Part shown: positions 1 to 14,546 of the stretch, piece after piece
Layout of the letters: each line of letters opens with the position of its first letter
Numbering within the stretch: position 1 is the stretch's first letter
From: Acidithiobacillus ferrianus
Lineage (GTDB): Bacteria > Pseudomonadota > Gammaproteobacteria > Acidithiobacillales > Acidithiobacillaceae
Assembly: GCF_010378095.1 (NCBI RefSeq)
Contig: NZ_WNJL01000023.1
Coordinates: forward strand, 1 to 64,000
Reading direction: 5' to 3'
Length of the DNA: 64,000 nt
Notes under the pieces: model-generated
Databases searched by the model: none
What the model was told of the DNA's origin: nothing
The model's input: the letters and a program-made list of their open reading frames with translations, nothing else
Program-made: the position numbers and the translations under genes

Positions 1-1
1 C

Positions 2-698: not shown

Positions 699-731
699 TC
701 CTGTTTGCCATGAGAGGTTTGCCCCCGGTCC

Positions 732-2522
732 CTAAGGCGCAACGGGGTGAGAGGGAGCGTCAGCGACCGCAACCCCGGCCGCGCCGACCGCCTGATCCGC
801 CAAGGCGGACGCCATTCGATCGACCTCCTCGTCGCTCAGGTTGGCGATCTGCTCGTCAGTCAACCCCGCCATGATCGCCATAACCCCCTCCTCCAACATC
901 GTTTCAACATCCATTTCCATGTTCATTTCCTCCTGTGGTGGTGGTGCGGCGTCCGGGCAAGTGGTGGCGGGGTCGTTCCTCCCTTTTCCCTCCCCCACAG
1001 TAGTGGCAGAAGGTTGGTCTGGCTTGCGGTCCGGATCGTACCTGGGTAGGGAACGCTGAGGGCAGTCCAGAAAATCCGGTTGATCCCCGTGCCTGGGCAG
1101 CCCGTCGAATTCGATCTTGACCCTGGCCACGCGGTGGCTCCCTCCCATCCTGAGGTACCCATGGAGATCCTCCAGCCCCATGATCTGGGAGGGCAAGATC
1201 AGACGCTCCGTGGTGATGGCTTCATTGGTGCTGCTGCTATTGCTGTTGCTGCTGCTGCTTCCCCCTCCTTGCCCGTTGGTGCTCGTGCTGTTACTGGCGC
1301 TCGCGCTGGCGGTCTTGCGGGTCAGCTTGATTTCCCCCAGTTCTTTGCTGACGTGATCGGCGGTGCTCGCGTCGCCGACCCGGAGGTACAAGCGGGTCTT
1401 GGGGATGCTCCAAAGCGAGGCGGCCAGGTGTTCCCCAAAAGCGTCCTGGAGTTGCCCATACGCTTGGATCCCCAGGATGGCCGTCAATCCAAACTTTCTC
1501 CCCTCGGCCAGAGCGGGGGGAAGACTGGGCAAGTTCTTGAGCGTCGGCAATTCATCCAGTGCCAGCCAGATCCGGCGATCCGGGTCCTGGCGAAGGCTCA
1601 TGGCGTGCCGGACCACCGTGTCCACCCACAAGGACACCAAGGGGCGCAAGGCATCCCTGGCGCGCGGGGGGACGGGGAGGAAAAGCCATGAATCACCCGG
1701 AGTTTCCAGCCACTTCCTGATGGAAAAGGCGCCTGCATCCTCCCTGTGGACGTTTGCAAGCAGTCCCAATGAGCGGAGGTAAACGCCCATTGATGCCCGC
1801 GTGCTCTGGAAGGTTTTCTCCGGCCCGATCATGCCTCCAAACCCCGCGTCCGCGACTAGTTGAGCCAGCGTCCCCAAGGGGGCGGACAAGCCCGTGCTGA
1901 CCAGTTCATCCAGATCTTGGCTTTCGGTCAGCAACGCTTCCAGGGTGGCTTGAGCGGCCACAGACCAAAACTCCCCCTCACCCTTTTGCGTTGGGATCAG
2001 GGACTTGGCAAATGCCGCATATTCAAAGGGTTCGGCGTCCATCCACGGATTCCAGCGCTCGCTTCGTTGATCCAGGGGGTTCAAAATGTGGTCAATGCCG
2101 GGACGGAAGAAAAGGCTGACCAGTTCCCCGCTGACATCGTAAATGACCGCCTTTTCCGTTCCCCGCGCGCGAATCGCACGCAATGCTTTCTTGATCTCGA
2201 CGCTTTTGCCGGTGCCGGGTGCTCCAACGATGAGGACGTGCTGCTGCTCGTCCCCTGTGTCCAATGGCACCCCGCCCAGGGTGATCTGGTTGGGCCGGGT
2301 TTTCCGGCGCAGCGTGTTCTTCACACTGGGAACAGTGGCATCAACCAATGAGGATCCCGCCATGTGCTGATCCTCGTTTTCTCTGCCCAGTTTGGCCGTG
2401 TGGGCGGCTTCCAAAACCGCCCTGGCATGATGGGACAAGTCATCCCATCGCTGTTTCTGGGGCTGAGTGCCGTTTTCCCCGGTGGCCGCTTGCATGAAGC
2501 TTTTCAATTTTTCCATGAACAT
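732..2522 (-). CDS. TraD/VirD4-family conjugative coupling ATPase (first of two)
   Basis: This 596-aa ATPase resembles type IV coupling proteins, which dock the relaxase-DNA complex onto a secretion channel. The Walker A motif GAPGTGKS is near residue 100, and a Walker B-like strand IWLALDELPTL near residue 325. The segment after residue 400 is a low-complexity Ser/Asn/Gly run, and the C-terminus is acidic. There is no obvious N-terminal membrane anchor; the neighbouring 158-aa and 64-aa membrane proteins could supply it. The start at 2522 follows GGAG by 8 bases and lies next to the upstream stop at 2525, which suggests tight coupling. A second, different TraD-like ATPase is at 3295-5343. 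Confidence 0.8.
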   Translation of the reverse strand: MFMEKLKSFMQAATGENGTQPQKQRWDDLSHHARAVLEAAHTAKLGRENEDQHMAGSSLVDATVPSVKNTLRRKTRPNQITLGGVPLDTGDEQQHVLIVGAPGTGKSVEIKKALRAIRARGTEKAVIYDVSGELVSLFFRPGIDHILNPLDQRSERWNPWMDAEPFEYAAFAKSLIPTQKGEGEFWSVAAQATLEALLTESQDLDELVSTGLSAPLGTLAQLVADAGFGGMIGPEKTFQSTRASMGVYLRSLGLLANVHREDAGAFSIRKWLETPGDSWLFLPVPPRARDALRPLVSLWVDTVVRHAMSLRQDPDRRIWLALDELPTLKNLPSLPPALAEGRKFGLTAILGIQAYGQLQDAFGEHLAASLWSIPKTRLYLRVGDASTADHVSKELGEIKLTRKTASASASNSTSTNGQGGGSSSSNSNSSSTNEAITTERLILPSQIMGLEDLHGYLRMGGSHRVARVKIEFDGLPRHGDQPDFLDCPQRSLPRYDPDRKPDQPSATTVGEGKGRNDPATTCPDAAPPPQEEMNMEMDVETMLEEGVMAIMAGLTDEQIANLSDEEVDRMASALADQAVGAAGVAVADAPSHPVAP

Positions 2523-2524
2523 GA

Positions 2525-3001
2525 CTATTTCTCCTCAACACGGCTCTGGGCATAGCCCCCAGCCTCCATCAACACCTTGCGGCCATTCCGCAAGTCCCAA
2601 TAAATTAACGAGAAAGCGGCGAACATGACCGCGCTGACTCCATACCCGATCCACCCTCCCCAAGGAAGCCCCTTTCCCCCGGTCGACGACATGAGGAAAT
2701 CCGGTAACATCATAAAAATGACCCAAGGGATGGGGTAAATGACACCCCAAGTGAGGAACGGACCCCAGAAATGCTCTGCCCAGATATTGGGATGCTGGAG
2801 CCGGGCATAGGTCCAGCAGGCGGCGGGCATTAACAATTCCGGCGCGCCGGCCATGAGTCCCAGAACGCCGATCACCCCAAAAACCGCGCCGATCTTCAAC
2901 ATGGTCCCCATCCTGGGCAAGTCGCCAATGATGGCAGACTGCACGTGAGAAAACGTCTGGTGGGCGTCGTGGGCTTCGTCAACTTCATCTAAAATTCCCA
3001 T
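2525..3001 (-). CDS. Small membrane protein of the transfer region
   Basis: This 158-aa protein has about three to four hydrophobic segments: around residues 35-60, 80-105 (with WGVIYPIPWVIFMM) and 120-140. It starts at MGILDEVDEAH, since an upstream extension would overlap the previous gene. It sits between a 64-aa single-span protein and the TraD-like ATPase and abuts the latter. Coupling proteins usually have their own N-terminal membrane domain, so a separate membrane partner is a reasonable inference, but no family is recognised. Confidence 0.65.
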   Translation of the reverse strand: MGILDEVDEAHDAHQTFSHVQSAIIGDLPRMGTMLKIGAVFGVIGVLGLMAGAPELLMPAACWTYARLQHPNIWAEHFWGPFLTWGVIYPIPWVIFMMLPDFLMSSTGGKGLPWGGWIGYGVSAVMFAAFSLIYWDLRNGRKVLMEAGGYAQSRVEEK

Positions 3002-3017
3002 TTTTTCTGTGCTCCTT

Positions 3018-3212
3018 TCAAGGGTTGACCACAAGCCAGCAGGCGGCGAAGAACACGATCGCCAAGACGATCAACAGCATGTTCTTCAGATCCCTCATGA
3101 TTTCATCCCCCAGACTTCCATCGGAGGGGGATGAACTTTGCAATGGGGTAAGTATGTCCTGCAGCAAGCGGGCCGCTTTCTGGCGCCGCGAGTTTTCTTC
3201 CTCATCATTCAT
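3018..3212 (-). CDS. 64-aa single-span membrane protein
   Basis: This short protein has a charged, soluble N-terminal part and one C-terminal transmembrane segment (LLIVLAIVFFAACWLVV), a tail-anchored layout. An excellent ribosome site, AAAGGAGG, lies 7 bases before the ATG. It is the first gene of a leftward unit (64 aa, 158 aa, TraD-like ATPase, coiled-coil protein) headed by one of the six repeated promoter-region motifs at 3261-3282. Function unknown. Confidence 0.6.
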   Translation of the reverse strand: MNDEEENSRRQKAARLLQDILTPLQSSSPSDGSLGDEIMRDLKNMLLIVLAIVFFAACWLVVNP

Positions 3213-3233
3213 GACGAACCTCCTTTTCAGTGC

Positions 3234-3282
3234 GGATCCGGAAAAGTCCGGCTCCTCTGTCTATGTGTGCCAAGCGGAAACA
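3234..3282 (-). promoter_or_regulatory. Element regulatory motif, copy A, with leader hairpin
   Basis: Read leftward, positions 3282-3261 carry TGTTTCCG-C-TTGGCACA followed by CATAG, 48 bases before the start at 3212. A hairpin lies between motif and ribosome site: CCGGCTCC (3248-3255) pairs with GGATCCGG (3234-3241) with one mismatch. The same layout occurs at five other sites in this element. Confidence 0.7.
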
Positions 3283-3294
3283 TTTTTTCTATTC

Positions 3295-5343
3295 CTATTC
3301 CGCCTCCTCTTCCTCGCGCTCCTGACAGGAGGCATCTAGAATGGTTTGCGATGGTCGTCCAACAACAGGTGGTGCCGCCGGCGACACTTCCTTCAGGATG
3401 TCAAAGGCCACGCCCGCCCCCGGCGCCACAAGTTGATCCAGCATCTGACTGATCAAATGATCCCCCACCAGGTCATCCACCACGGTTTCCCCCGCTTCCC
3501 CGGTCTGTTGTTGCTTGCCGTCAGGTTGCCGTTCGGTGGAGATGACCACACGTGGCTTCTTCCTCAATTCGTCTTCCTGTTTTTTTTCACCGGGGACGTG
3601 GGGTGTGGTGGGGATGTCGACGATGGGGGGAGTTGCCCCCCAGTCGGGCCGGGGATAACGCGGCAAGACCCATTGGGCTTCATGCTTTTTTTCCCGGCCT
3701 TGCCGGATCGTGGGGATGAGGGGGAAAGGCCAGTCCAGCAGCCCCACGTGGTCAGATCCGGCAACGGCCAGAATCGCACGCGGGCCCCTTCTGGTAACCT
3801 TTACTATTTGCCCAAACTGGGAGGGCATCACCACGTGCTCGCGCACCCGTTGGTAGCTTCCCCCCTGGCTGCTGCTTTGGGATCCCGTGGTGTACTGAGT
3901 ATTGAACCGTTCCAGATCCCTTTCCCCCACCAAATTTGCCGCCCATTTTTGGTCCTCGGGCTCCCCTATGCGTCCTATGATTTTTGTGGCGGTTTGCATG
4001 GACCAACTGCGGGCGGTCGTTTTTGAGTACCGCTCCTCGATTTGCCCGATTCCCTGGCAACCCAGAATCATGCGGACGCCTTTGCTTCTCAGGACTTCCA
4101 GGGCTTCTGTGATGGAAGGAATTTTCCCCATGCGGGGGACTTCGTCCAGAATGAGCCAGACGCGCCGGTCCTCTGGAGAGGCGTCCGGCAAGTCCTCCAG
4201 CTTCAGGACGATTTGTTCAACGAGCGAGGCGCACCATGCCTCTGACAAGGCTTTTGCCGACGGGCGGAAGCCCAAAATGGCAACTGGGGGAGTTTTCCCG
4301 TTCCCGTTGATCCACTTGTTGACGCTCCAGTGTCTACCCCCCGCTGAATCTTTCAGGTTGTCCGCTGCAACACCCAGATTGATCACCTGGGTCAGATGGG
4401 CTGCTACGTTTGCCAGAAAGGAAGCCGTCGTCCGGCTCTCCGCGCCCCCAGAAATCAAGGAGGTAGCCATGGGGTTTTCCCTGGAAATGATCTCCTTCAA
4501 GATGGGGAAATGGGCCAATGCTTCCGCGCACTTTTTGGCGAGATCGGCGAAACCCCAGTTTTCCCCCCGCTCCTTTTGGACCTCAGCGATGATGCCGACC
4601 AGCAGGGATCGGGATCCGTTGGTCCACATGGGGTTGTCTTCTTTCTCTGGGGAGGGGATCAGGGTGTTGGCCAAAGCCTCCGCATCCAACCTGGTGCGGA
4701 TGTCGTTGCCTAGAGACCACAGCGCGCTTCGGGTGTCCCACGGGGCGAGCAGGGCAAACTGCGTGTCCAGCTTCTGTTCAAAGTCCCCCTTGAAGCTGAA
4801 AATGACGGCCTTGTCCCCCCGATCAACAATTTGATGGATCATTGGCCAAAGAATCGTGGTCTTGCCCGCGCCAGACCCTCCCACAATGAGCAGGTGGCTG
4901 GTTTCCAACGCCTCCGTGGTCTGAATTTTGGGGTGGATGCGGATGGCTTCGTTTTCTCCTTTTGCTGGGGGGGAAGCATCCAGAATTGCCCGCGCCATCA
5001 CCTTTGGCCGCGCGGTGATCCGGGATCCCCGAACGTGGATCTCGGCTGGCACGTCTCCGGCCTTCCAGCCCAATGCTCCCCCCAACAGCGCGCCCGCCGC
5101 CGCGCCCCCGGCCAGGGGCAAATGGTAGGCGGGGGGAAAAAGTCCGGCTTGACGAATCGCTGCCCAGATCGTGGATGGTGTCAGAAAGCCGGTGCCATGG
5201 AGCAGCCCTACAGCTTCCCATCCCAGGCAGTAGCCCAACACACCTCCGGCCGCCACGCCAAAGACGAACATTTCCAAAAAACCAGATCCCCTGGCAAAGC
5301 GCGGATCGTTGGGGCCGGCGTAGTGCTCAGCGTCCATTTTCAT
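3295..5343 (-). CDS. TraD/VirD4-family conjugative coupling ATPase (second of two)
   Basis: This 682-aa ATPase has an N-terminal hydrophobic region with two likely membrane spans (about residues 20-45 and 70-95), then Walker A GGSGAGKTT near residue 155 and Walker B VWLILDEVPRM near residue 385. This is the classical layout of a membrane-anchored TraD/TrwB coupling protein. The C-terminal third is Pro/Lys/Glu-rich. The start at 5343 (ATG-AAA-ATG) overlaps the end of the preceding 62-aa gene, so translation is probably coupled; an upstream extension would run inside that gene. With the first TraD-like ATPase at 732-2522 the element encodes two candidate coupling proteins. Confidence 0.82.
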   Translation of the reverse strand: MKMDAEHYAGPNDPRFARGSGFLEMFVFGVAAGGVLGYCLGWEAVGLLHGTGFLTPSTIWAAIRQAGLFPPAYHLPLAGGAAAGALLGGALGWKAGDVPAEIHVRGSRITARPKVMARAILDASPPAKGENEAIRIHPKIQTTEALETSHLLIVGGSGAGKTTILWPMIHQIVDRGDKAVIFSFKGDFEQKLDTQFALLAPWDTRSALWSLGNDIRTRLDAEALANTLIPSPEKEDNPMWTNGSRSLLVGIIAEVQKERGENWGFADLAKKCAEALAHFPILKEIISRENPMATSLISGGAESRTTASFLANVAAHLTQVINLGVAADNLKDSAGGRHWSVNKWINGNGKTPPVAILGFRPSAKALSEAWCASLVEQIVLKLEDLPDASPEDRRVWLILDEVPRMGKIPSITEALEVLRSKGVRMILGCQGIGQIEERYSKTTARSWSMQTATKIIGRIGEPEDQKWAANLVGERDLERFNTQYTTGSQSSSQGGSYQRVREHVVMPSQFGQIVKVTRRGPRAILAVAGSDHVGLLDWPFPLIPTIRQGREKKHEAQWVLPRYPRPDWGATPPIVDIPTTPHVPGEKKQEDELRKKPRVVISTERQPDGKQQQTGEAGETVVDDLVGDHLISQMLDQLVAPGAGVAFDILKEVSPAAPPVVGRPSQTILDASCQEREEEEAE

Positions 5344-5515
5344 TTTCCTCGGGGTCCATCTCTGGGAGGGGGTCACGATCCAGGCTGCCATCGATCCACC
5401 CGATCAGTCCAAATTTCGGATGAAAATAGCCCCGACCGGGGGCAACGCCTGCCTCCAGCCAGCTTCTGTGGATCCTCCACATCGCACGTCTAATCCTGAT
5501 CTTCAGGTTTTTCAT
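5327..5515 (-). CDS. 62-aa basic protein before the second coupling ATPase
   Basis: The protein starts MKNLKIRIRR, is strongly basic at the N-terminus and acidic at the C-terminus (PEMDPEENENGR). An AAAGGAG site precedes the ATG by a short gap, and the C-terminal codons overlap the start of the coupling ATPase. It heads a two-gene unit behind motif copy B. No family is recognised; the overlap suggests a partner or translational enhancer of the ATPase. Confidence 0.55.
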   Translation of the reverse strand: MKNLKIRIRRAMWRIHRSWLEAGVAPGRGYFHPKFGLIGWIDGSLDRDPLPEMDPEENENGR

Positions 5516-5529
5516 TTTCCGTCTCCTTT

Positions 5530-5584
5530 GAGGCGGGGGGTGATGAGTGGAACCGCCCTCATATCTATGTGCCAATCGGAAACA
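5530..5584 (-). promoter_or_regulatory. Element regulatory motif, copy B, with leader hairpin
   Basis: Positions 5584-5565 read leftward carry TGTTTCCG-A-TTGGCACA-TAG, 50 bases before the start at 5515. A GC-rich hairpin (5553-5560 with 5530-5536) lies between motif and ribosome site. Confidence 0.7.
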
Positions 5585-5830
5585 ATCCCGGATGGGCGGC
5601 TTGGCAATGGGTTGAAAAGATGATCAATGAAGGATCACGGGGGATAAAGGTGATCGCGTTGGTGCCCGCCCGGACGGGCGCGGGATGGTGGCATGCTGCG
5701 GCGCTGGAGGGAGGCGGGAAACCTGAATTCCTGCGGGGAAGGCTGCGATTCATTGGCAAAGACGGGGCAGCCGGCGCCGCCGCGCCCTTCGACTCCGCGC
5801 TGATCTGGTTTGGGTTCGGCGATCAGAGTT
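5585..5830 (+). pseudogene. Relic resembling a phage-type DNA N6-adenine methyltransferase
   Basis: A rightward frame reads NNPGWAAWQWVEKMI, then VIALVPARTGAGWWHAA, then FLRGRLRF and APFDSALIWFG. These resemble the C-terminal half of phage N6-adenine methyltransferases (Dam-like, PF05869). The N-terminal catalytic half is absent and the tail runs into the 3' end of the oppositely oriented relaxase gene. No start with a ribosome site is seen. It is read as the stump of an older gene; the family call rests on resemblance only. Confidence 0.45.
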
Positions 5831-8800
5831 CCAGTTCCGGTGCGGGGGTGGCGGACGGCTCCACGGTTTCTTTTCCGCCTGTCTGATCCCCCTGGTCCAA
5901 GCCTGACCCGTCTGCGGTCAATTGCTGTTCCTGCACTTTTTCCTGCTGTTCAACAGCCTGAGCACCTTTTTCTTTACCGTTTTGCAGAATGGAGTCCAGG
6001 CGATCCAGGCGGCGATCGGTTTTCAGGTCGGCATTTTTCCGGGCAGTCTCAGCAAGGTTCTTGTCCGCAAAATCCTTTGAGCGTTTGATAAGCCCCTCTG
6101 CGTGATCGGTAATCACGGTCAGCCCGTGCCGCATGCGGGTAGTGCCCACGAGCAGCAAATTCCGTGAGGACCCGGCTGACGACTCACCCGTCATGATCGG
6201 CAAGTCAACGCTTTTGCCTTGAGAATCGTTGACCGTGCGGGCATAGCCGTAATCGAGGGCAAGCCTTTCACCAGCATCCAGAACTACGATCGCACCGTCC
6301 CGGTCTTTCTGAACCGTGATCTGACCGTTTTCTATCTTCTGAATCTTGCCCCCATCCCCGTTTTGAGCGCCGCGCGTCGTGTTATCACGAATCACGATCT
6401 GCTCGCCCACGGCAAGGCCCATGCCGGGTTTCTGGTCAAATACCTGCCACTTTTTGGGGTCGATTTTGCCCGCCTCGATGGTCTTTTTCTGACCATCGGG
6501 GGCTTTCAGGGTGAGAAGGTTATGCTGTCCATCGGTCTTCACCACTTCATAATCCACCACCCGCGCTTCGGCGCCTTTGCCCTCCCTAGTCCGCATAATC
6601 TGGCCGATTTCATACTGGTGAGCCTCTTTCATGTGCTTCTGTGACAAGTCGCTTTTTGTCAGTTGCGTGATCTGGATCTGGTCAGAGGGCAAAGCCCCGG
6701 CATTTTGCAACTTGTCACGAATACCCGCATTCACCATCCCCCGAACTTCATTGGTCGGACAAATGATCATGGTGCGGGCGCGGTCAATTTCGCTCCGGCC
6801 CATGTATTCATTGACTGTGGCTCCAGCGATGGCCGCCCTGCGGTCCTCCTTGGTGACTTTCGGGACCCCATCCTTGTCTTTGGCCCCGGTGCCCTGAATC
6901 TGTGGGGTCTCATGAATATACTTCTTCACCAGTTCCAGGGCTTTTTCCGTGTCCCGGTCAGCCCATGCCTGCCCCAACTTGAGCAAATCCATATCCGCCG
7001 CCTTGGCCTGACGTTGCACCTGAGTCAGCCGGGAAACGTGAATAACCCCCTTGTCTGTAAGGGTTTGGAGAGGATCGCCCGCCTCGACGGGCTTCATCTG
7101 GTCGGGGTCGCCGCTGAGCAAAAGGCGGTCCTGGGGTCCCATCTTGCGTAGGACTTGCTGCATGGTGCGGTCCCCAACCATGCCCGCCTCATCTAATATG
7201 TAGAGCCTGGGCTTCTGATCTTCCTTGGCTTTTTGCATCAGGAATGATGCTGTGGTCACGTTCTTGTCGGTGCCAGCATCTACGAGTTCCTGACGTGCGC
7301 CATGGCTTGGCGTGAGTCCAACGGTCTCATACCCCATGCTTTTTGCTGCATCCACCATGCTTTTCATGGCGGTGGTTTTGCCGGTACCAGCACCACCGAT
7401 CATCGCTGAAACCCTGTCAGCGCTGGTCAGTGTATCAATGACCGCCTGGCGCTGGTCGGTAGCAAATGAAAACCCTTGGCTCTTTTCAGCAGCTTGAACG
7501 GTTTTTCCTGCAGCTTCCTGACTCATCAGAGGGACAAGTTTGCCCCGGCCCTCTGCACAGAATCCTTGAATCCAACCCTCCCTGACAACGGTTTCAACTG
7601 TTGTCACCATCTCCGCGCGGATCATCACGCTGCGTGGATTACCATCTTTGCCGGGCTTTTCTACAACCTTGGTCTGCTCTCCAGCCCAGACGATGCGCCC
7701 ATGAGTGATCATAGCGGCTTCAATGTCAGGATAAGACACTTCCCCCATGCCTTGTTTGATCGCTTCAAGCGCCACCTGGCGCTTGTCAAAGAGCGAGTCT
7801 TTTTCAGAAAGATGGTCCAGCGCGGCGTCGATTGCCTGCCGCGCCTTGGCTTCGGTCAGTCCGTCTCCGGCGGCTGCGCCCCGTCGCATATCATGATCGC
7901 CTGATCGATCAGCTTGTGAGTGATTCTGCAAAATACCTGCACCTTGCCCCCCTTGACCTCCATCCAAACGGCTGCCGGACAGCGACTGCATGCCGTCCCC
8001 GGATCCAGGTTCAACTGGTTCAGGGTAAAGCTTTTCAGAGAAGTGGTGGGTGAAGAAATCTCCGGGTTGCTGCTCTGATCGTTCATTTTGCTGCTCCTTT
8101 TCGGGGTGAGTACCGCTGTTAAAACGCTCTGTGTTGAAATCTGTGGAATCTTTCATGGATTCCTGTCCAGATTTTGAAATTCCACTCAAATCGCGCTGCG
8201 GGTCATAAAGATTTTGAAAGTCAACGCCTTCCTCTCGCAAACGATCGCGCCATTGGTAGCGCAGTTCTATCTGTGACACGTCACGCAACTTATTCTGCCG
8301 GGTGTCCAGATTGGCTACATTCCTCTCAGCGGCGGTCGAAGTTTCGCGGGTAAGTCCCTTGTCCGCCAAGGCTTTTTCAATTTCTTTGCTGCGGTCTGAG
8401 AAAGCCAGAATCTGCTCGCGGCTGATCCCCACCACTTCAAATCCGTCTTTGGTTTTTTCGGTAGAAATGCCCATGCGCTCCAACCCGGCGGCTAGATGCG
8501 CCTTGGCCTTGAAGTCTGCTAAATGCTGTTCAACACTCAAAGCACCGAAGTCCAGATCCATGCCCCTCCAGCCATTTCCATCGTGGGTGGAGTTGATGAG
8601 GATGTTGTGAAAATGGGTGTCAGGATCAATTTTCAGAGATCCGTTTTCGTCCGGGGTGGGCCGGGCATCGTCGTGTTGGAAAGTGGCGATGATCGCTGTG
8701 CCAGTTTTTTCCGACATGACGCCACCCTTGCCATACCTGGCATTCACCACATGATCTTCAATGTGCTGCATACCAACAGCATTTGCTTCCCGGCAAATCT

Positions 8801-9122
8801 CCAGAAGTCGCTCCCTCATCTCAGGCGGCGCACTTTCAATCAGCACGCTGACGCTCTTCGGGACAGACCAGGTCAGATCCACCCCCATGCGGCGGTTGGT
8901 GGCGGCTTCCATACCTTCTGGGCCTTTCTCCAGAAGCGCCTTGAACACCTTGGCGTCGATGGAACCTGACAGGCCAAGCATCTCCGCACCCCGGCCTTGC
9001 CATTGGCTAGGCGCCTCTCCCCCTTTTTGGTAGTAGCCTTTCTCCCCTTGGCGTTCCTGATTCTTGGTGAGGTACCCTGCCACCCCCGCGCTGGATCCCT
9101 TCAGGGATTTGATGTTCAGCAT
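5823..9122 (-). CDS. MobF-family conjugative relaxase with RecD-like helicase domain
   Basis: This 1099-aa protein begins MLNIKSLKGSSAGVAGYL, typical of TrwC/TraA-type relaxases. Residues about 1-300 form the relaxase domain. Catalytic tyrosines are expected near the GYY at about residue 29; the metal-binding histidines are in QHDDAR and in DPDTHFHN. Walker A GGAGTGKTT (near residue 585) and LDEAGMVGD follow, matching the RecD-like 5'-3' helicase half. It nicks oriT, is transferred covalently attached to the strand and unwinds the DNA. The ATG at 9122 follows a GGAG site; a 53-codon upstream extension overlaps motif copy C and is not used. Length is normal for the family. Confidence 0.93.
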   Translation of the reverse strand: MLNIKSLKGSSAGVAGYLTKNQERQGEKGYYQKGGEAPSQWQGRGAEMLGLSGSIDAKVFKALLEKGPEGMEAATNRRMGVDLTWSVPKSVSVLIESAPPEMRERLLEICREANAVGMQHIEDHVVNARYGKGGVMSEKTGTAIIATFQHDDARPTPDENGSLKIDPDTHFHNILINSTHDGNGWRGMDLDFGALSVEQHLADFKAKAHLAAGLERMGISTEKTKDGFEVVGISREQILAFSDRSKEIEKALADKGLTRETSTAAERNVANLDTRQNKLRDVSQIELRYQWRDRLREEGVDFQNLYDPQRDLSGISKSGQESMKDSTDFNTERFNSGTHPEKEQQNERSEQQPGDFFTHHFSEKLYPEPVEPGSGDGMQSLSGSRLDGGQGGQGAGILQNHSQADRSGDHDMRRGAAAGDGLTEAKARQAIDAALDHLSEKDSLFDKRQVALEAIKQGMGEVSYPDIEAAMITHGRIVWAGEQTKVVEKPGKDGNPRSVMIRAEMVTTVETVVREGWIQGFCAEGRGKLVPLMSQEAAGKTVQAAEKSQGFSFATDQRQAVIDTLTSADRVSAMIGGAGTGKTTAMKSMVDAAKSMGYETVGLTPSHGARQELVDAGTDKNVTTASFLMQKAKEDQKPRLYILDEAGMVGDRTMQQVLRKMGPQDRLLLSGDPDQMKPVEAGDPLQTLTDKGVIHVSRLTQVQRQAKAADMDLLKLGQAWADRDTEKALELVKKYIHETPQIQGTGAKDKDGVPKVTKEDRRAAIAGATVNEYMGRSEIDRARTMIICPTNEVRGMVNAGIRDKLQNAGALPSDQIQITQLTKSDLSQKHMKEAHQYEIGQIMRTREGKGAEARVVDYEVVKTDGQHNLLTLKAPDGQKKTIEAGKIDPKKWQVFDQKPGMGLAVGEQIVIRDNTTRGAQNGDGGKIQKIENGQITVQKDRDGAIVVLDAGERLALDYGYARTVNDSQGKSVDLPIMTGESSAGSSRNLLLVGTTRMRHGLTVITDHAEGLIKRSKDFADKNLAETARKNADLKTDRRLDRLDSILQNGKEKGAQAVEQQEKVQEQQLTADGSGLDQGDQTGGKETVEPSATPAPELEL

Positions 9123-9142
9123 GTCTGCTCCTGTGTGGGCTT

Positions 9143-9469
9143 CTACAGATATGTGCGCGTCGGAAACATTTGCAGATCCCCGTCGATGCGCGCCCATTTG
9201 AAATTCAGGTGCTCCAATGCCGCTTGCGGATTGATGTCCAGCAGCAGCAACAGTGATTGCGCATAGATGCCGCCCAGCCATCGCCGGGCGGCTTGATCGC
9301 GCATAAAAGATTGCTCCACGGCATCCAGCAAAATGCGGGCTATCAGATCCCGGTCGTGATTTTTTGAACTGGTCGCATATTCGTTGAATGCCTGCTGATA
9401 ACCTTTAGGTTGCGCTTTGGGTTTGACACGGGTTGTCATGGGAATGACATTGGAATTGGAATAAGTCAT
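9143..9469 (-). CDS. Hypothetical 108-aa protein upstream of the relaxase
   Basis: The start at 9469 has an AGGAGG site upstream. The N-terminus is polar and basic (MTYSNSNVIPMTTRVKPKAQ); the C-terminal part looks helical (ARRWLGGIYAQSLLLLLDINPQAALEHL). The last codons contain motif copy C. In R388-like systems the gene before the relaxase is a small oriT-binding protein (TrwA), but no ribbon-helix-helix signature is clear here, so that role is only a possibility from position. Confidence 0.6.
   Translation of the reverse strand: MTYSNSNVIPMTTRVKPKAQPKGYQQAFNEYATSSKNHDRDLIARILLDAVEQSFMRDQAARRWLGGIYAQSLLLLLDINPQAALEHLNFKWARIDGDLQMFPTRTYL
9149..9168 (-). promoter_or_regulatory. Element regulatory motif, copy C
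   Basis: Read leftward it is TGTTTCCGACGCGCACA-TAT, the most divergent copy, only 27 bases before the relaxase start and inside the 3' end of the upstream 108-aa gene. The leader is too short for the hairpin seen at the other copies, so the relaxase may be controlled differently. Confidence 0.55.
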
Positions 9470-9487
9470 GAATAAACCCTCCTGTTC

Positions 9488-9607
9488 TTAATGCCAGCGC
9501 ATGACATGCCCTGACAATGAATAAATGATGAAAGATTGCGCCGCCAGCCAATGCGCGATCCACCGCCACACAAAGCGATATTCCAGCCAGTATTGACCAA
9601 TGCCCAT
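9488..9607 (-). CDS. Possible 39-aa small protein
   Basis: This short frame, MGIGQYWLEYRFVWRWIAHW..., has host-like codon use and fills the gap between the 74-aa and 108-aa genes, ending just before the ribosome site of the latter. A competing 59-codon frame in the same interval starts by overlapping the upstream stop (ATGA) and ends by overlapping the downstream ATG, so the true frame is unsettled. It is Trp-rich and amphipathic. No function can be assigned. Confidence 0.3.
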   Translation of the reverse strand: MGIGQYWLEYRFVWRWIAHWLAAQSFIIYSLSGHVMRWH

Positions 9608-9632
9608 CCATGCCAGAACGGCATAGCCGCCT

Positions 9633-9857
9633 TCATTCAAGAAACGGTTTGGCATGGCAGATCAACGCGGAGACTTGAGCAGACGCGCGATGTGGAGCGG
9701 GTCCACAGCGATATTCAGTGCCGCCTTTCATGACGACGATGAAATGCAAATGGAAGCGGTCAGCGGGGCAACTGTATGGCCACCTTTCCAGAGCGAACCA
9801 CTCCCCAAGGGAAAGCCTTCTCTGACCTGCAAAATCGTATGTGAAGATGTCAGCCAT
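9633..9857 (-). CDS. Hypothetical 74-aa protein coupled to the ProQ/FinO-like gene
   Basis: The ATG at 9857 overlaps the last codons of the preceding gene (AATGGCTGA), a common sign of translational coupling. The product begins MADIFTYDFAGQRRL and has no recognised domain, membrane span or signal peptide. It lies in a leftward string of small genes leading to the relaxase. Confidence 0.5.
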   Translation of the reverse strand: MADIFTYDFAGQRRLSLGEWFALERWPYSCPADRFHLHFIVVMKGGTEYRCGPAPHRASAQVSALICHAKPFLE

Positions 9858-10356
9858 TTTCCCGCTCCTTTTTCGCCTTCCAGTAAGCTCTCTTTTTCGC
9901 CTTGATCATTTTGACAAAGGCGACAAAGCCGTACATGTCCTTTTCCGATATTTTGCCGACCACATTCGCGTTCAAATCGTAGCGCTTTTGCTCAATAACC
10001 GCCGCCAGCTTGTATTCCTCGGCAGCACAATATTTCTTCAATCGCCGGGTCACCGCTTCGATGACATCTTTTTTGCCGCCGCGAGTCAATTTGCCCGCTT
10101 TCGCGCGGTTGGAAATAATCGCCGCGATCAAATCCTGGTGGAGGCGATACTTGAAGGGCAGGATTCTCCCTTGTTGAAATACCGGAAAACTGAAAATTTC
10201 ATCCCGCTCGGCTTTCATTCGCGCTTCAAAGGCCGCCTGAAATAACGCACGTTCCTTCCGCTCCTTGTCCTTGCGTTCCTTGTCCTTCTTGCGCTCCTTG
10301 CGCCAAATTTGAACGGGAGTGAGAGTGGCTTCTTCTTCCTGTTTCGGCTGTTCCAT
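9850..10356 (-). CDS. ProQ/FinO-like RNA chaperone
   Basis: The 168-aa protein has a very basic N-terminal tail (about residues 15-60, dense in Lys, Arg and Glu). A domain follows with the flow of ProQ/FinO proteins: a segment ending PFKYRLHQDLIAAI, a helical middle, and RYDLNANVVGKISEKD, which resembles the conserved Tyr-Asp-Leu-Asp-Gly/Asn-Val-Gly-Glu-Ile stretch. A basic C-terminal tail closes it. FinO-type proteins bind stem-loops in small RNAs and leaders and can hold down plasmid transfer; ProQ-type proteins act more broadly. Several units of this element have leader hairpins, so these are possible targets (inference). Family call by pattern only. Confidence 0.65.
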   Translation of the reverse strand: MEQPKQEEEATLTPVQIWRKERKKDKERKDKERKERALFQAAFEARMKAERDEIFSFPVFQQGRILPFKYRLHQDLIAAIISNRAKAGKLTRGGKKDVIEAVTRRLKKYCAAEEYKLAAVIEQKRYDLNANVVGKISEKDMYGFVAFVKMIKAKKRAYWKAKKERENG

Positions 10357-10412
10357 GATGCAGATCCTTTGGGCTCGCGCCCTGCAAGGGGCCGGGTGGC
10401 CCCTGTTAATGA

Positions 10413-10901
10413 TTAAGGCTTTGCTACTTTTGCTACTGGTGCCGATTGATTCGCAGGCTCTACCCGGTAATGACCGTGGGCAGAAGTCATGACAAATACC
10501 CGCTCGCCTGGCGTAAGGTGGACAATTCCCGCTTCTGGAATAGATAGCGTTTGGCCGGTAGAAAGCTTCACAAATACATCGGTTCCGGCGCCAGAATTGG
10601 GGGTGATTGCATCACCAATAATGCCGCCGCCAGCCGCACCCGCCAGCGCACCAATGACATTGCCGCCCAGCATATAACCCGCGATTCCGCCAGCGCCTGC
10701 ACCTAAGCCAGTAGCCTGATCCACACGCGCGCTGTTGTTGATCTTGATCGGCATGGTCTTGATGACCGTGCCAGTCTGTACCGATTCAGGGGCGAGATTT
10801 GAAGAGCCGGAAAATCTTGTTGACGATAACGGGATACCTGCACAACCTGATAACGCGAAAGCGGTAAGAACTGCTGCTGTTACTGAGATTTTGCGATTCA
10901 T
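10413..10901 (-). CDS. Glycine-zipper outer-membrane lipoprotein (SlyB/17-kDa antigen-like)
   Basis: The 162-aa precursor begins MNRKISVTAAVLTAFALSGCAG, a signal peptide with lipobox LSGC; Cys near residue 20 would be lipidated. Residues about 65-100 are a Gly/Ala-rich glycine zipper (GLGAGAGGIAGYMLGG and a following GxxxG run), as in SlyB, Pcp and the rickettsial 17-kDa antigen. A small C-terminal beta domain follows. Such proteins stabilise the outer membrane. On a mobile element it may alter the recipient surface or support the transfer channel; this is inference. Confidence 0.75.
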   Translation of the reverse strand: MNRKISVTAAVLTAFALSGCAGIPLSSTRFSGSSNLAPESVQTGTVIKTMPIKINNSARVDQATGLGAGAGGIAGYMLGGNVIGALAGAAGGGIIGDAITPNSGAGTDVFVKLSTGQTLSIPEAGIVHLTPGERVFVMTSAHGHYRVEPANQSAPVAKVAKP

Positions 10902-10953
10902 TTGAAGTGTCCTTTGGGGCCAGACCGGCCCCGTTGTGATGGATGGATTTGGC

Positions 10954-11601
10954 TTAGAACTGGTACGCCAGGCCCGCGCCTTCGGTAGTCACAGACTGCC
11001 CAGGCACATGCAGGTAACGGACATTGATGCTTGCAGTTACATGCGGGGCAATCTGAAAGCCAACCTCCGCCTTGCCCTGGTAAACGCTGCCGCCATTTCC
11101 CCCAAACGTGGAGATGGTGTGGCCATAGCCACCACCGAATTCCAGCATGACGCGGGAGCCGATCGGCACGTTCATGTCAGCACCAGCCAGGGCAAAAAAG
11201 TCCTGAATAGTGGCCCCTTGCGTATATGAATACGGGGTGGTCTGGGTGTAGAAATAACCATATCCAGCATTCACCTGAGATGTGGTGTAACCCGTTTCCT
11301 GCTGGTTGTAATTCAGATTGAGAAAGCCCATGCCAACATACGGCTCAAACGACACGCCACCAGCAGGGATCAGCTTGCCAAGCGAGGCATTCATGCTGTA
11401 GAAGCCATTGGCAAGCGTTGCGCTACCACTAGCCACGAGATTATTAGAGTACAGATTGCCAGCGGTCAGAGTAACGCCGGGACGTCCGGGATGACCGCTC
11501 AGGCCAATATTGGTATAGCCAATGCCAATAGACGGACCCGCAAAAGCCACGGCGGGGATGAAAGATGCAATAACGGCAACTGCAATGATCTGCTTTTTCA
11601 T
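10954..11601 (-). CDS. Outer-membrane beta-barrel protein (OmpA/OmpW-like size)
   Basis: The 215-aa protein begins with a clear signal peptide (MKKQIIAVAVIASFIPAVAFA) and continues as alternating Gly/Tyr/Asn-rich strands, ending in the terminal phenylalanine expected of a barrel (GAGLAYQF). No OmpA peptidoglycan-binding domain is present. It has its own motif (copy D) and leader hairpin, so it is co-regulated with the transfer genes. An envelope role such as mating-pair stabilisation, surface exclusion or phage receptor masking would fit, but nothing in the sequence decides it. Confidence 0.7.
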   Translation of the reverse strand: MKKQIIAVAVIASFIPAVAFAGPSIGIGYTNIGLSGHPGRPGVTLTAGNLYSNNLVASGSATLANGFYSMNASLGKLIPAGGVSFEPYVGMGFLNLNYNQQETGYTTSQVNAGYGYFYTQTTPYSYTQGATIQDFFALAGADMNVPIGSRVMLEFGGGYGHTISTFGGNGGSVYQGKAEVGFQIAPHVTASINVRYLHVPGQSVTTEGAGLAYQF

Positions 11602-11624
11602 TTGAAGAGTTCCTTTTCAGTGGT

Positions 11625-11673
11625 GGAGCCGGAAAAGCCCGGCTCCTATACATCTATGTGCCAATCGGAAACA
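11625..11673 (-). promoter_or_regulatory. Element regulatory motif, copy D, with perfect leader hairpin
   Basis: Positions 11673-11654 read leftward carry TGTTTCCG-A-TTGGCACA-TAG, 52 bases before the start at 11601. GGAGCCGG (11646-11639) pairs perfectly with CCGGCTCC (11632-11625) around a 6-base loop. Copies D and E also share CCAGTAAT just upstream of the core. Confidence 0.72.
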
Positions 11674-11681
11674 ATTACTGG

Positions 11682-11945
11682 TCACCAGCCTTCCTGTTCT
11701 TTCACCTCCTCAAAATACTTGTCAGCTCTTTGCTCTGCACTTGCCCGATTCTCATTGTCGTAGTAAAAATTTTGGTACTTTTTTATCACACTTGCCGAGT
11801 TTATGGCGGTGTATTGCCGCCCAGCCGAAAGCTCGCAAGTTCTGATAATTCGAATAAAATCCCCTTTGCCCAGCCACTCTCCGGCCACATCGACCTGCAC
11901 GAGATCGGTTCCATTTCTCACTCGCGCCCGCTTCAATTCCTTCAT
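11682..11945 (-). CDS. Hypothetical 87-aa protein
   Basis: The start at 11945 follows AAAGGAG by 8 bases. The product begins MKELKRARVRNGTDLV and ends in a charged helix (ADKYFEEVKEQEGW). No membrane span or signal peptide, and no recognised family. It stands alone behind motif copy E, its stop lying just before motif copy D of the next gene. An upstream extension would run through the leader hairpin and motif and is rejected. Confidence 0.6.
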   Translation of the reverse strand: MKELKRARVRNGTDLVQVDVAGEWLGKGDFIRIIRTCELSAGRQYTAINSASVIKKYQNFYYDNENRASAEQRADKYFEEVKEQEGW

Positions 11946-11967
11946 GACCAATCTCCTTTTCAACGCT

Positions 11968-12016
11968 GGAGCGGGGAAATTCCCGCCCTCATGTCTACGT
12001 GTGCCAAGCGGAAACA
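11968..12016 (-). promoter_or_regulatory. Element regulatory motif, copy E, with leader hairpin
   Basis: Positions 12016-11995 read leftward carry TGTTTCCG-C-TTGGCACA followed by CGTAG, 50 bases before the start at 11945. A hairpin (GGCGGGAA with TTCCCCGC) lies between the motif and the AAAGGAG ribosome site. Confidence 0.7.
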
Positions 12017-12017
12017 A

Positions 12018-12250
12018 TTACTGGAACGCTTTGGCTCTGGAGCTCTGGATCTTCCACGGTGTCAGCAAGCTGCCGGGTTTGCGGCCGCGCGGGATGAGCG
12101 AATAGAGTCCGGGCTCGTTGATAACGTTCAGCAAGCTATTGATTCCAGTACCGTCATTATTGGTGACTGTAGCAGAATCAACGGCTTGCATTTTCTCGTC
12201 GCCGGTCAGATAAGCTGCCGCTTGCCTGTCGCCGCCCTGGAGGACAAATC
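12018..12250 (-). pseudogene. Fragment of a BRO-N (antirepressor-type) domain
   Basis: The frame reads QAAAYLTGDEKMQAV, a gap, then LNVINEPGLYSLI and RKPG. This resembles the second half of the BRO-N domain of phage antirepressors (usual pattern: Asp-Asp-Glu-Lys, then Val-Ile-Asn-Glu-Ser-Gly-Leu-Tyr-Ser-Leu-Ile). The N-terminal half is missing, the open frame upstream runs into the inverted-repeat region without a ribosome site, and the C-terminus breaks off after RKPG. It is read as a stump of a phage-derived gene. The stop codon lies immediately before motif copy E. Confidence 0.5.
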
Positions 12251-12314
12251 GGCAGGAAAGCGGCACGGCAAGACGCGCAGCAAAAGCCGCCACCGGGCGG
12301 TCGCGCTCCGGCGA

Positions 12315-12485
12315 GGGGACCCCAGAAGCGAAGCGCACTGGGGACGGAAAGCGCGATGCGCGAAGCGCACTTTTTGCGTCAGAAAAGCGCCCGGAGCTTG
12401 CTCAGCCGCCGGCAGGCACACAATCCACCCGTCAGGGTGCGATTGTGTGCCTTCAAGCTCACTCCGTAGCGTAGCGGAGGGGTGA
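12315..12485. other. Candidate origin of transfer: clustered inverted and direct repeats
   Basis: This gene-free stretch lies between the leftward relaxase side and the rightward StbABC-like operon, where R388-type elements place oriT. It holds a 12-base direct repeat GCGAAGCGCACT (12328-12339 and 12360-12371), an 11-bp perfect inverted repeat GGCACACAATC/GATTGTGTGCC (12415-12425 and 12441-12451) whose loop holds a further ACCC/GGGT pairing, a CCCCAG/CTGGGG pair (12320-12340) and an imperfect CTCACTCCG/CGGAGGGGTGAG pair (12457-12485). The nick site cannot be placed from sequence alone. Confidence 0.5.
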
Positions 12486-12515
12486 GCGACCGGAAAATAT
12501 TGAGCAGAAAACCCG

Positions 12516-12642
12516 CCGCAACATGAGAATATCCGCCGCAAACCGACCGCAAACCGACCGCAACATTTATACCAAACCCGCCGCAAACCAGCCGCAAACC
12601 GACCGCAACATTTAGCATACAGCCGCAAACCAGCCGCAACTT
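12516..12642 (+). repeat. Array of nine phased CCGCAA repeats, candidate partition site
   Basis: CCGCAA occurs at 12516, 12536, 12547, 12558, 12581, 12592, 12603, 12623 and 12634. Within groups the step is exactly 11 bases, about one helical turn. Each internal group is two CCGCAAACC units followed by one CCGCAACAT unit. A 12-base direct repeat TTGAGCAGAAAA flanks the array at 12500-12511 and 12658-12669. It sits just upstream of the StbABC-like operon. In R388 the StbA protein binds short direct repeats at the equivalent place, so this is probably the binding site of the 115-aa protein that follows. Confidence 0.75.
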
Positions 12643-12686
12643 GTAGAACGAAGAATTTTGAGCAGAAAAGCGGCTCAACGGGAAAA

Positions 12687-12706
12687 TGTTTCCGATTGGC
12701 ACATAG
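12687..12706 (+). promoter_or_regulatory. Element regulatory motif, copy F
   Basis: Reads TGTTTCCG-A-TTGGCACA-TAG on the + strand, 47 bases before the start at 12754. It is the only copy driving rightward genes, yet has the same orientation relative to its gene as the other five. No leader hairpin is obvious. Confidence 0.7.
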
Positions 12707-12753
12707 TAATAGCAGAGAAGTTTTTTCTTGTTTGTGGGCGAATGGAGAATGAC

Positions 12754-13101
12754 ATGGAGGACAAGCTGACTGAGCTGGTGAAGAAAGGGATTAGCAAAAA
12801 GTATGAATTGAAAGCGCTCGTCCTGGAGCGGTACGCGGACATTACCGCGGCACGGCAAAACTTGAGGACTTGGGGGGAGATTGCTGAAGCTCTGGGGCTT
12901 CAGAAAAGCAGGGGTAAGGATATGTCGCCGTGCTATTTGAGGATCAGTAAAAGCATTGCGTCTGGGAAATTGAAGCCGGGTAAGGCAGTTGCGGTTGCCG
13001 GGTTACGCGCGACACAGTCAGATAGAGCGTCAGTGCAAGAGCCACGCAAAGACAAAGACAGCGGTGGTAGTAGCAACTTCATCAATCTTGATAAACCGTA
13101 A
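12754..13101 (+). CDS. StbA-like DNA-binding protein (first gene of an stbABC-like operon)
   Basis: The 115-aa protein begins MEDKLTELVKKGISKKYELK. A helix-turn-helix-like stretch, TWGEIAEALGLQ, is near residues 35-50, and the Ser/Lys-rich tail looks unstructured. GGAG lies 6 bases before the chosen ATG; an ATG at 12742 is possible and a longer frame from 12658 would overlap motif copy F. Its place before a ParA-like gene and a C-terminally anchored membrane protein, next to a repeat array and a MobF region, matches R388 stbA. StbA binds repeats to balance plasmid stability against transfer. Homology here is by synteny more than sequence. Confidence 0.65.
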   Translation: MEDKLTELVKKGISKKYELKALVLERYADITAARQNLRTWGEIAEALGLQKSRGKDMSPCYLRISKSIASGKLKPGKAVAVAGLRATQSDRASVQEPRKDKDSGGSSNFINLDKP

Positions 13102-13113
13102 GGAGCAGCAAAA

Positions 13114-13836
13114 ATGGAACAGAAAAAGTTGATTATCTGTCATGGTGACAAGGGCGGCGTGGGCAAGTCGATGTTTGCGATGCTGACCGTCGATTTCATG
13201 CTGAACAAAGGTGAGTCTTTGGCGGTGGTCGAGGGAGATATAGAGATCGGCGATGTGGCTAAACGGTTTTCAGGCGTTAAGAATGTCGCAGGACTTGGCG
13301 TGGATCTGGATAAGAGTGGCCGGGATGCCGAAAACTCAATCGCTACTCTTTTTCGGCACGTTGAAGAACAGGACTGTAAAACCGTTGTGATCAACGCGCC
13401 GGCAAACGCAAAAAAAGCGTTTGATACAAACGCGGAGATCATTGTCCCTGTAGCTCAGGACTTAGGATTTGAAGTGCTGGTGGCATGGATGGTGGGCATT
13501 GAAGAAGCGAGCGCGGAACTGTCAGAGAAGTCTATTATCTGTCAAATGGCAGACCGCAAAATTGCTGTGATAAACCGGCATGAGAGCCAGCATGATATGG
13601 ATTTTTTCTGGTTTACAAACCCGGAATATAAGGATGCGTGGATTGCGTCAGGTGGACTCACTGGAGAAATCCCGGAGCTGGCATCGCGCGTTGCGGTTTG
13701 TCTGAAAGCTCACAAGGGCCGTTCTTTGGCTTCGCTGGCAGGACCTGACAGTCCACTCCACATTGTGGATAGACAGGTCATCAAAAACTGGCTGAAGAAA
13801 TCGTGGACCTCAGCGGTTCAACCTCTCATTGATTAA
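13114..13836 (+). CDS. StbB-like ParA-family ATPase
   Basis: The 240-aa protein begins MEQKKLIICHGDKGGVGKS; KGGVGKS is the deviant Walker A of ParA/MinD/StbB ATPases. The second conserved strand reads VVINAPANAKK rather than the Asp-containing ParA form, as in StbB and VirC1-like proteins. AGGAG precedes the ATG by 8 bases, and the gap to the upstream stop is 12 bases. In R388-type systems StbB is needed for conjugation and works with StbA on positioning. The start and P-loop are clear; the StbB subgroup is inferred from context. Confidence 0.8.
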   Translation: MEQKKLIICHGDKGGVGKSMFAMLTVDFMLNKGESLAVVEGDIEIGDVAKRFSGVKNVAGLGVDLDKSGRDAENSIATLFRHVEEQDCKTVVINAPANAKKAFDTNAEIIVPVAQDLGFEVLVAWMVGIEEASAELSEKSIICQMADRKIAVINRHESQHDMDFFWFTNPEYKDAWIASGGLTGEIPELASRVAVCLKAHKGRSLASLAGPDSPLHIVDRQVIKNWLKKSWTSAVQPLID

Positions 13837-13862
13837 ATATTATTGAATAAGGAGTGCATCAC

Positions 13863-14546
13863 ATGGTTGACATCGACAGCGACAATCCGTGGGAGGCCAC
13901 GGAACAGCAAGAAAGCCAGATTATCGAAACTAAACCTGAACCGGTAGAAATGGAAACGGGGTTGGACTTGATTTCGGATATCTTGCCATCGGGAGAATTT
14001 AAGCAATTTGTAAAATGGACACAATCTTATCGAATTGGTCAGGACGACCCGTTTTTTGGGAATGTTTTGGCTACGCGGGTTGCCTTTCAAAGTGCAGCCG
14101 CATGTGGACATGCGGCGGCGGCCATTCAGGAGGAATTAAAAGATTTGCCAAGCACGATTCAAAACGCGGTTATTTTAGGGGCTGGAGACATCAAAGGGGA
14201 AGTCAAGCAAGCCTTCAATGACAACGTGGAAACGCTGAAAACCGCCATAGCGGGGGGAATAAAGGGAGGGGCAAAAATCAGTATTGATGCCCTGAATCTG
14301 GTGAATGGAAAGTTTATCGCGGCTATTGAGGAGTTTGATTCAAAGGTGGACAAAGCCATTATCCAGCACAAGGACCAGGTGCTTGCAAATTGGGTTCAGT
14401 CTGGAAGCGAAGATTTAAATAAAAGAATTCGCGCTGAGGTAAAACAGGCGCGCGTCATCAGTTTTGGAATTCTGTTTTTTATGGTCTGGGTCGTCTTTTT
14501 CCTTGGTTTTATCGCGGGGGTGTATTTGTCTCATCACCCGATTTGA
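13863..14546 (+). CDS. StbC-like protein with C-terminal membrane anchor
   Basis: The 227-aa protein begins MVDIDSDNPWEATEQQ and is mostly soluble and helical. It ends with one strong transmembrane segment (ILFFMVWVVFFLGFIAGVYL) followed by SHHPI. GGAG lies 8 bases before the ATG; an upstream in-frame GTG is less likely. Its position as third gene after the HTH and ParA-like genes matches stbC, whose role is unknown. It is probably anchored in the inner membrane, possibly linking the ATPase to the membrane (inference). Confidence 0.6.
   Translation: MVDIDSDNPWEATEQQESQIIETKPEPVEMETGLDLISDILPSGEFKQFVKWTQSYRIGQDDPFFGNVLATRVAFQSAAACGHAAAAIQEELKDLPSTIQNAVILGAGDIKGEVKQAFNDNVETLKTAIAGGIKGGAKISIDALNLVNGKFIAAIEEFDSKVDKAIIQHKDQVLANWVQSGSEDLNKRIRAEVKQARVISFGILFFMVWVVFFLGFIAGVYLSHHPI

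Follow-up and report, generated by a model that had tools for sequence, protein, structure and literature searches.

Six copies of one nearly invariant sequence box precede transfer and maintenance operons of a MobF element in Acidithiobacillus ferrianus, each facing the gene behind it, each followed by a similar layout, and with no exact or near-exact copy elsewhere in the genome. The element (W) lies at the left of the window, by which we mean the first 64 kb of contig NZ_WNJL01000023.1 (contig C16 of genome G000, 3,165,856 bases), where it seems to span approximately positions 1–20,300, its left end being cut by the contig. The box, which recurs in a second element of the genus, is real, specific and conserved, and belongs to a broader set of what we read as promoters private to their elements; we infer the mechanism and name its reader as a candidate. 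To our knowledge, little is known about such control in acidophiles, and the box set offers a defined, testable regulon for their transfer and maintenance genes.

Six oriented boxes in the window and eight in a related element

The pattern TGTTTCCG-N4-GCACA has six exact sites in the window against an expectation of 0.00, and none in 100 shuffles. The longer core TGTTTCCGNTTGGCACA is exact at five of these sites; with up to three mismatches allowed it yields six matches against 0.82 expected, again attained in 0 of 100 shuffles. A sequence-only reading of this DNA had listed six sites, all oriented alike relative to their genes, and both statements hold: all six are present, and each faces the gene 3' of it. 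Box A (3261–3282, minus strand) lies 5' of open reading frames (ORFs) of 64 and 169 amino acids (aa) and of the coupling protein TraD2 (732–2522), and box B (5565–5584, minus) lies 5' of a small ORF and the coupling protein TraD1 (3295–5391), both coupling proteins being TraD by NCBIfam. Box C (9149–9168, minus) stands before the MobF relaxase, box D (11654–11673, minus) before a barrel protein (10954–11601) and the same-strand gene run that continues down to 9143, box E (11995–12016, minus) before an 87-aa protein (11682–11945), and box F (12687–12706, plus) before the StbABC-like operon. Boxes A and E are variants with two extra bases ahead of TAG, as had been described, namely CA in A and CG in E.

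Counted by hand from the motif end to the start codon, five boxes lie 48, 49, 52, 49 and 47 bases away, within the range of 47–52 given previously. The shorter spacing of the relaxase copy was also correctly noticed, the distance to its ATG being 26 bases instead of the 27 reported. Two other statements had to be revised. The core is not identical in all six copies: the relaxase copy reads TGTTTCCGACGCGCACA, with middle bases ACGC, three mismatches to the core as first written and no TTG, and is followed by TAT instead of TAG. The proposed element-wide reach is likewise too strong, as the region 14630–19817, which encodes the primase, AlpA-like and sigma-like proteins, showed no box copy in pattern and matrix scans of the window.

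Across the whole G000 genome, TGTTTCCGNTTGGCACA with up to three mismatches occurs at 30 places, against nine for a reversed-pattern control. Five are exact, none has one mismatch, two have two, and 23 have three, the relaxase copy among them; no exact or one-mismatch site was found in this genome outside the window element. With at most one mismatch allowed, a search of 17 genomes from the genus finds TGTTTCCG-N4-GCACATA five times in the window element, eight times (exactly) on contig C6 of genome G013, and once each in G014 and G009. A wider scan of genome contigs recovered 35 stretches, more than one match being confined to the Acidithiobacillus ferrivorans contig (two stretches, five matches); the other 33 single matches, uninspected, are taken as chance. 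The corresponding scan of viral contigs gave 38 stretches with one match apiece, also uninspected. A multi-copy box set confined to its element, a feature of sigma regulons encoded by mobile genetic elements, is what these scans recovered.

The second element, G013:C6, is taken as contig JAAOMR010000103.1 of A. ferrivorans DSM 22755, in the same genus as G000, and carries eight copies of this box, hereafter class 1. Its relaxase is 75–76% identical to that of the window and its StbB-like protein 77%, and a 74-aa and a 108-aa protein are each 65% identical between the two elements. In the 14 copies combined (six and eight), 13 of 17 positions are invariant, columns farther upstream carry little information, and T, A, then A, T are preferred at fixed columns downstream; every one of the 14 points at a gene. 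A matrix built from these copies, and scored on the same 14 sites, gives them 30.3–43.9 bits, the next best score across 15 loci, the entire window among them, being 8.1. In four gene pairs matched between W and C6, the invariant core agrees at 13 of 13 positions, and the 60 nucleotides (nt) upstream reach 33–49% best ungapped identity. Because the box recurs 5' of matching operons despite diverged upstream DNA, the central proposal of a shared regulatory site that defines a regulon is well supported.

The same comparison bears on the notion that these are copied promoter cassettes with no dedicated reader, one promoter having been duplicated within each element. The middle bases of the box are closer within one element than between W and C6, which speaks for copying; yet only the core is conserved, the sequence 5' of it being nearly uninformative over the 14 sites, and the outer 13 bases are identical between elements whose upstream DNA has diverged. 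We hold this explanation to be very improbable.

Among the genes of the element, the MobF relaxase/helicase (5823–9122, minus) matches NF041492 at 191.2 bits against a cut-off of 100, its start being set by hand in an ORF listed to 9281. Inside this gene, in another frame, lies a small cysteine-rich protein (CxxC...FC; 7856–8086, minus), 19 positions of which are identical across the four relaxase genes compared (W, C6, G016:C7 and G013:C883). The two TraD-type coupling ATPases (732–2522 and 3295–5391, both minus) are different proteins within one element. The StbA-like protein (12754–13101, plus) has no family match and is named by its position before the ParA-like gene, that is, the StbB-like ParA-type ATPase (13114–13836, plus; weak family matches). 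A direct-repeat array 5' of stbA (12509–12639, plus), with an 11-base-pair (bp) period (CCGCAAACCGA) in 12536–12639, is the probable StbA site. Farther right are a Toprim-domain protein (14630–18214, minus; Toprim_3), called primase here by our own reading, the AlpA-like protein (18211–18891, minus; faint HTH_17 match, start set by hand, ORF listed to 18933), and the sigma-70-like protein ending in GQLSLF (19050–19817, minus), named from profile matches. A tRNA-Arg(TCT) lies at 20235–20311 (plus), at the probable right end of the element.

A promoter-like layout behind the box

The layout runs from the core through a TAGATA-like stretch, at times a hairpin, and a Shine-Dalgarno sequence to the start codon, the stretch behind the class 1 core reading TAGATA, TATAGATA or similar. 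Canonical sigma-70 features (a TTGACA-like -35, 16–18 nt, and a TATAAT-like -10) are absent here, the upstream columns being without information, and a canonical sigma-70 scan of positions 1–20,000, which requires T at position 6, returned six candidates, fewer than the 9.6 expected, and placed none of them at a box. Sigma-54 promoters carry GG at -24 and GC at -12 (TGGCAC-N5-TTGC). All eight C6 copies lack TGGCAC, reading CTGCACA or TTGCACA, and there is no GC at -12 in the copies inspected. The sequence-only reading was thus right that the core fits neither normal sigma-70 spacing nor sigma-54.

That reading had left two options, a shared operator or a special promoter, and the second fits better, because the site is asymmetric, points at the gene in 14 of 14 copies, and adjoins a -10-like stretch. 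As an operator, the box would be the site of an element repressor, for example StbA, over ordinary promoters, as in the R388 network. There, according to excerpts of the source, StbA reaches maintenance and transfer promoters (PMC3937220), and here the stb and transfer operons share a site. The asymmetry and constant orientation of the box argue against an operator, as does the sigma-70 scan, which puts none of its candidates at a box. The StbA proteins of W and C6 find no match to each other at 1e-4, and the window stbA has its own 11-bp repeat array, comparable to the 9-bp repeats, two bases apart, of R388 StbA (PMC3098194), a point weakened by the lack of a clear array in C6. We regard repression through the box as quite unlikely.

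Strictly invariant, element-specific boxes before a TATAG-like start also resemble T7-type promoters, those of single-subunit, phage-type RNA polymerases. PF00940 gave no match in five genomes including G000 and G013, a weak test in that control genomes were silent too, and no candidate polymerase gene was noticed in the elements; this explanation appears extremely improbable.

We consider it likely that the box has promoter function and an element-encoded reader. The fuller reading, in which the motif would be the core of an element-private promoter and the sigma-like protein the leading candidate for the factor that reads it, stands at about an even chance, a level that it keeps because that protein is named only as the leading candidate. 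Host RNA polymerase would start just 3' of the TAGATA-like stretch, and the usual -35 would be replaced by the box TGTTTCCG-N4-GCACA, at approximately -30 to -13 if TAGATA is the -10. An element-encoded specificity factor, for which the window candidate is the sigma-like protein at 19050–19817, would recognise the box; it would be made from the box-free AlpA/primase region and would then switch on, as one group, the operons of the relaxase, the coupling proteins, the barrel protein and the stb genes. The analysis shows where the sites lie, how they are conserved, oriented and arranged, and that they are missing from the rest of the genome; that they act as promoters, where transcription starts, which factor reads them and in what early/late order is inferred.

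An ordinary early promoter candidate, TTGACG-N17-TATAGA (18982–19010, minus), read by eye, lies 5' of the AlpA-like gene and was missed by the scan that requires T at position 6. The AlpA-like gene leaders of C6 (locus L133, 6878–6896, plus) and of the further element C883 (locus L168, 5989–6007, minus) share GATAGCGGCAGCGAYAAGG, which six of 326 loci match, all of them overlapping pieces of those two places.

Leader length and folding vary within class 1. From box start to start codon, the seven leaders that fold at -9 kcal/mol or better measure 61–72 nt, and six of the other seven measure 46–52 nt, stbA being at 67; start codons in this comparison follow a simple rule, and some may be misassigned. 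Folds of that strength occur in seven of 14 class 1 leaders against 9.1% of mononucleotide shuffles, and, in the two further box classes described below, in three of 18 (class 2, against 2.4%) and one of five (class 3, against 10%). We read the class 1 folds as RNA hairpins because their stems differ in sequence. In the window they lie behind box A (3234–3255), box D (11625–11646) and box E (11969–11990), all on the minus strand and with coordinates set by hand from the leader folds. A ProQ/FinO-domain protein (9850–10356, minus; 41.6 bits against a cut-off of 27) is encoded in the gene run that follows box D, in a setting of hairpin-forming leaders. An Rfam search of eight loci, the window not among them, gave three matches, none at a box; an ALIL pseudoknot was reported at L166 14439–14555 (minus, 106.3 bits).

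Private boxes of other elements and their candidate reader

The same layout with different boxes is found in two further MobF elements of G000 (C31a and C31b) and in G013:C883, recovered by a word count upstream of ORFs and an expectation-maximisation search. The boxes differ by class, and the stretch behind them is alike, being TATAGATG-like in all three. Class 2 (C31a and C31b) reads AATTTGGCA-N7-ATAGRTGA in 25 selected sites; 39 TTTGGCA places in L163–L166 supplied 23 kept and 16 dropped, and two sites on other contigs were added. This selection itself makes TTTGGCA invariant, and the folding covered 18 of the sites. Exact matches to TTTGGCA-N7-ATAGRTRR number 13 in G000, where the reversed control gives 0, and one each in four of the other 56 genomes, those in G001, G003 and G043 in chromosomal coding context and another in G014. 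Class 3 (C883) reads TTTTTGAATG-N4-CACCTATA in five sites, and a scan with its pattern gave 44 stretches with one match apiece, uninspected. Unlike in the window, the AlpA-like gene of class 2 elements is itself preceded by class 2 boxes (L165 6654–7040, minus; L279 near 14,000, minus). The word count also returned a three-copy word in C17.

A de novo search gave a motif judged clean in all five box-bearing elements (scores 104–155; two shuffles each, 73–83) and in none of 23 other loci, the search not being independent, as an exact-word count in these loci had already picked out the five. The two groups overlap in score: G026a (117.7), G019C1b (108.4), an extended G000C6 (104.1) and G025C20 (100.0) beat their shuffles with a diffuse consensus. 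Neither group includes G000C28, which has a single class 2 site along with an AlpA-like gene. Classes 1 and 2 reside together in G000 and classes 1 and 3 in G013, which suggests that co-resident elements keep separate promoter codes.

The only clear genes common to the five box-bearing elements (W, C6, C31a, C31b and C883) encode the MobF relaxase and the AlpA-like protein. Four of these elements group the AlpA-like gene with genes for a Toprim-domain protein and for a protein whose helix-turn-helix is sigma-like or related, the sigma-like helix-turn-helix being clear in two of those four, faint in one, and inferred from the family only in one. The window protein matches TIGR02937 (5.6e-8) and a PHROG sigma factor (3.5e-8), with RpoH as its best solved match (0.0011). 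The C883 protein exceeds the cut-off for Sigma70_r4_2 (28.0 bits against 25.7), matches TIGR02937 at 3.7e-8, and has a DnaJ-like N-terminus. In loci without boxes, a clear sigma-like relative was found in one of 23 (G000C6, split in two pieces), with a weak match in G026b (0.0019); 12 of the 23 have a relaxase or TraD1 match, with the AlpA-like gene in none, and the other 11 were picked for an AlpA-like gene. In alignments read by eye, C-terminal tails are GQLSLF-like (Q[LM]xLF) in 13 of 14, Q[LM][GA]WD[FM] in 18 of 21, and QxGWD in 16 of 16 sequences, and we take these tails to resemble beta-clamp-binding peptides. The sigma-like protein is the leading, contested candidate for the reader of the box, at somewhat below an even chance. 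The earlier list of candidate regulators also included StbA-like and AlpA-like proteins; these fit poorly, leaving the sigma-like protein as the best of the three.

Several observations weigh against the sigma-like protein and the promoter built around it. The window matches to TIGR02937 and Sigma70_r4 both fall under their curated cut-offs, the C31a protein reaches TIGR02937 only at E 0.12, and the C6 protein (L133 7525–8181) has no sigma-model match, only a 32% alignment with the C31a family. No sigma-like protein was found in the C31b DNA fetched, despite its boxes. W and C6 share a box with different sigma-like families, C6 and C31a share a family with different boxes, the window and C31a families gave no significant match when their profiles were compared, and the window-type sigma was not found in G013. 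The -10-like hexamer has A at position 6 instead of the usual T, and the box-free loci are often partial contigs, chosen partly for other genes. C31b and C31a, which occur in one cell, have a common box class. As for C6, either an assembly gap accounts for the missing window-type sigma, or specificity resides in the transfer module common to W and C6, for example in the 74-aa and 108-aa proteins.

A rival reading is MotA-like activation, in which host sigma-70 on the TAGATA-like -10 would be assisted by an element activator other than the sigma-like protein, bound at the box near -30; examples are the 74-aa protein (9633–9857), the 108-aa protein (9143–9469) and the AlpA-like protein. If TAGATA is the -10, the box sits where the T4 MotA box does (PMC2988021), centred at -30, 12 +/- 1 bp from the -10 and where a -35 would otherwise be. 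W and C6 have the transfer module in common along with the box, the relaxase being 75% and both small proteins 65% identical; the two small proteins are found, among 21 loci, only in W, C6 and C883, and the AlpA-like protein is in all five box-bearing elements. Yet the 108-aa protein has no Pfam or PHROGs match and the 74-aa protein no PHROGs match, neither occurs in C31a or C31b, the AlpA-like helix does not correspond to box class, and 11 loci picked for AlpA-like gave no clean motif. We consider such activation possible, if unlikely.

Two readers were rejected. The AlpA-like protein, although present in each box-bearing element, has a helix that does not track the box class, and its 11 selected loci yielded no clean motif. 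StbA has its own repeat array 5' of the window stbA, and the W and C6 proteins gave no blastp match at 1e-4, a rejection weakened by the absence of a clear array in C6. Outside the genus set, a plasmid collection gave no match for three sigma-like proteins; the Toprim protein found partial matches in seven records, and no MobF relaxase was annotated in the stretch of pTcM1 that was retrieved. In viral contigs, patterns for the sigma alignment, relaxase and AlpA-like protein matched 52, 3 and 12 stretches, none confirmed.

Should the sigma-like proteins prove to read the boxes, sigma factors encoded on the element would be a regular part of these conjugative elements, and the clamp-motif-like tails would make replication-coupled expression of transfer genes directly testable. 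A bolder and quite unlikely extension is that, in a group of acidithiobacilli MobF elements, the primase region of each encodes a separate sigma-like or sigma4-like factor that ends in a sliding-clamp tail (GQLSLF or QLGWD[FL]), the private transfer and partition promoters firing only while clamp-loaded element DNA is copied, in the style of T4 late transcription, with box and factor having diverged so that co-resident elements avoid cross-talk. The C883 protein (L168 4306–5295, minus), which joins a DnaJ-like domain to a helix-turn-helix resembling that of sigma region 4, has 30 related proteins at E 1e-3 or better.

Comparison with known systems

A literature survey covering titles and abstract openings, with partial coverage, found no description of such promoters in acidithiobacilli. 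Excerpts of four sources on better-known systems allow the following comparisons. R388 is likewise a MobF plasmid with stbABC and with regulators (StbA, KorA and ArdK) that reach many element promoters (PMC3098194, PMC3937220); six of its proteins, including StbA, repress plasmid promoters (PMC3937220), and StbA binds 9-bp direct repeats spaced by two (PMC3098194). It differs in that all regulators identified in these excerpts are repressors and that StbA sites are repeat arrays, whereas our boxes are single and the 11-bp-period array is separate (12536–12639).

T4 late transcription (gp55/gp33/gp45; PMC2988020) also employs small sigma-like or sigma4-like proteins with C-terminal clamp-binding tails, comparable to the window protein ending in GQLSLF. 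Its promoters, in that excerpt, are -10-only, whereas an upstream box is present here, where the putative clamp binding is a resemblance in sequence. T4 middle promoters, served by MotA/AsiA (PMC2988021), have a box near -30 in place of the -35 and adjoining the -10, a geometry that our box fits if TAGATA is the -10. They differ in that MotA boxes tolerate changes and require an excellent sigma-70 -10, whereas our box scarcely varies and its -10 matches poorly. Among general Pfam and PHROGs scan matches there were no MotA/AsiA relatives, no dedicated search having been made.

The SigN (ZpdN) regulon of Bacillus subtilis pBS32 (PMC6751061) combines, like our reading of the window element, a sigma factor on the element with a promoter set on the element. 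According to the excerpt, its authors failed to find SigN promoters in the chromosome, and several listed promoters contain AGATA. It differs in having a -35-like ATTTACG at the usual distance and an autoactivated sigN, whereas here a -35 is lacking, the sigma-like gene has no box in front of it, and its product is a candidate reader. Collectively, the closest known systems are T4 middle promoters by geometry and the pBS32 SigN regulon by biology.

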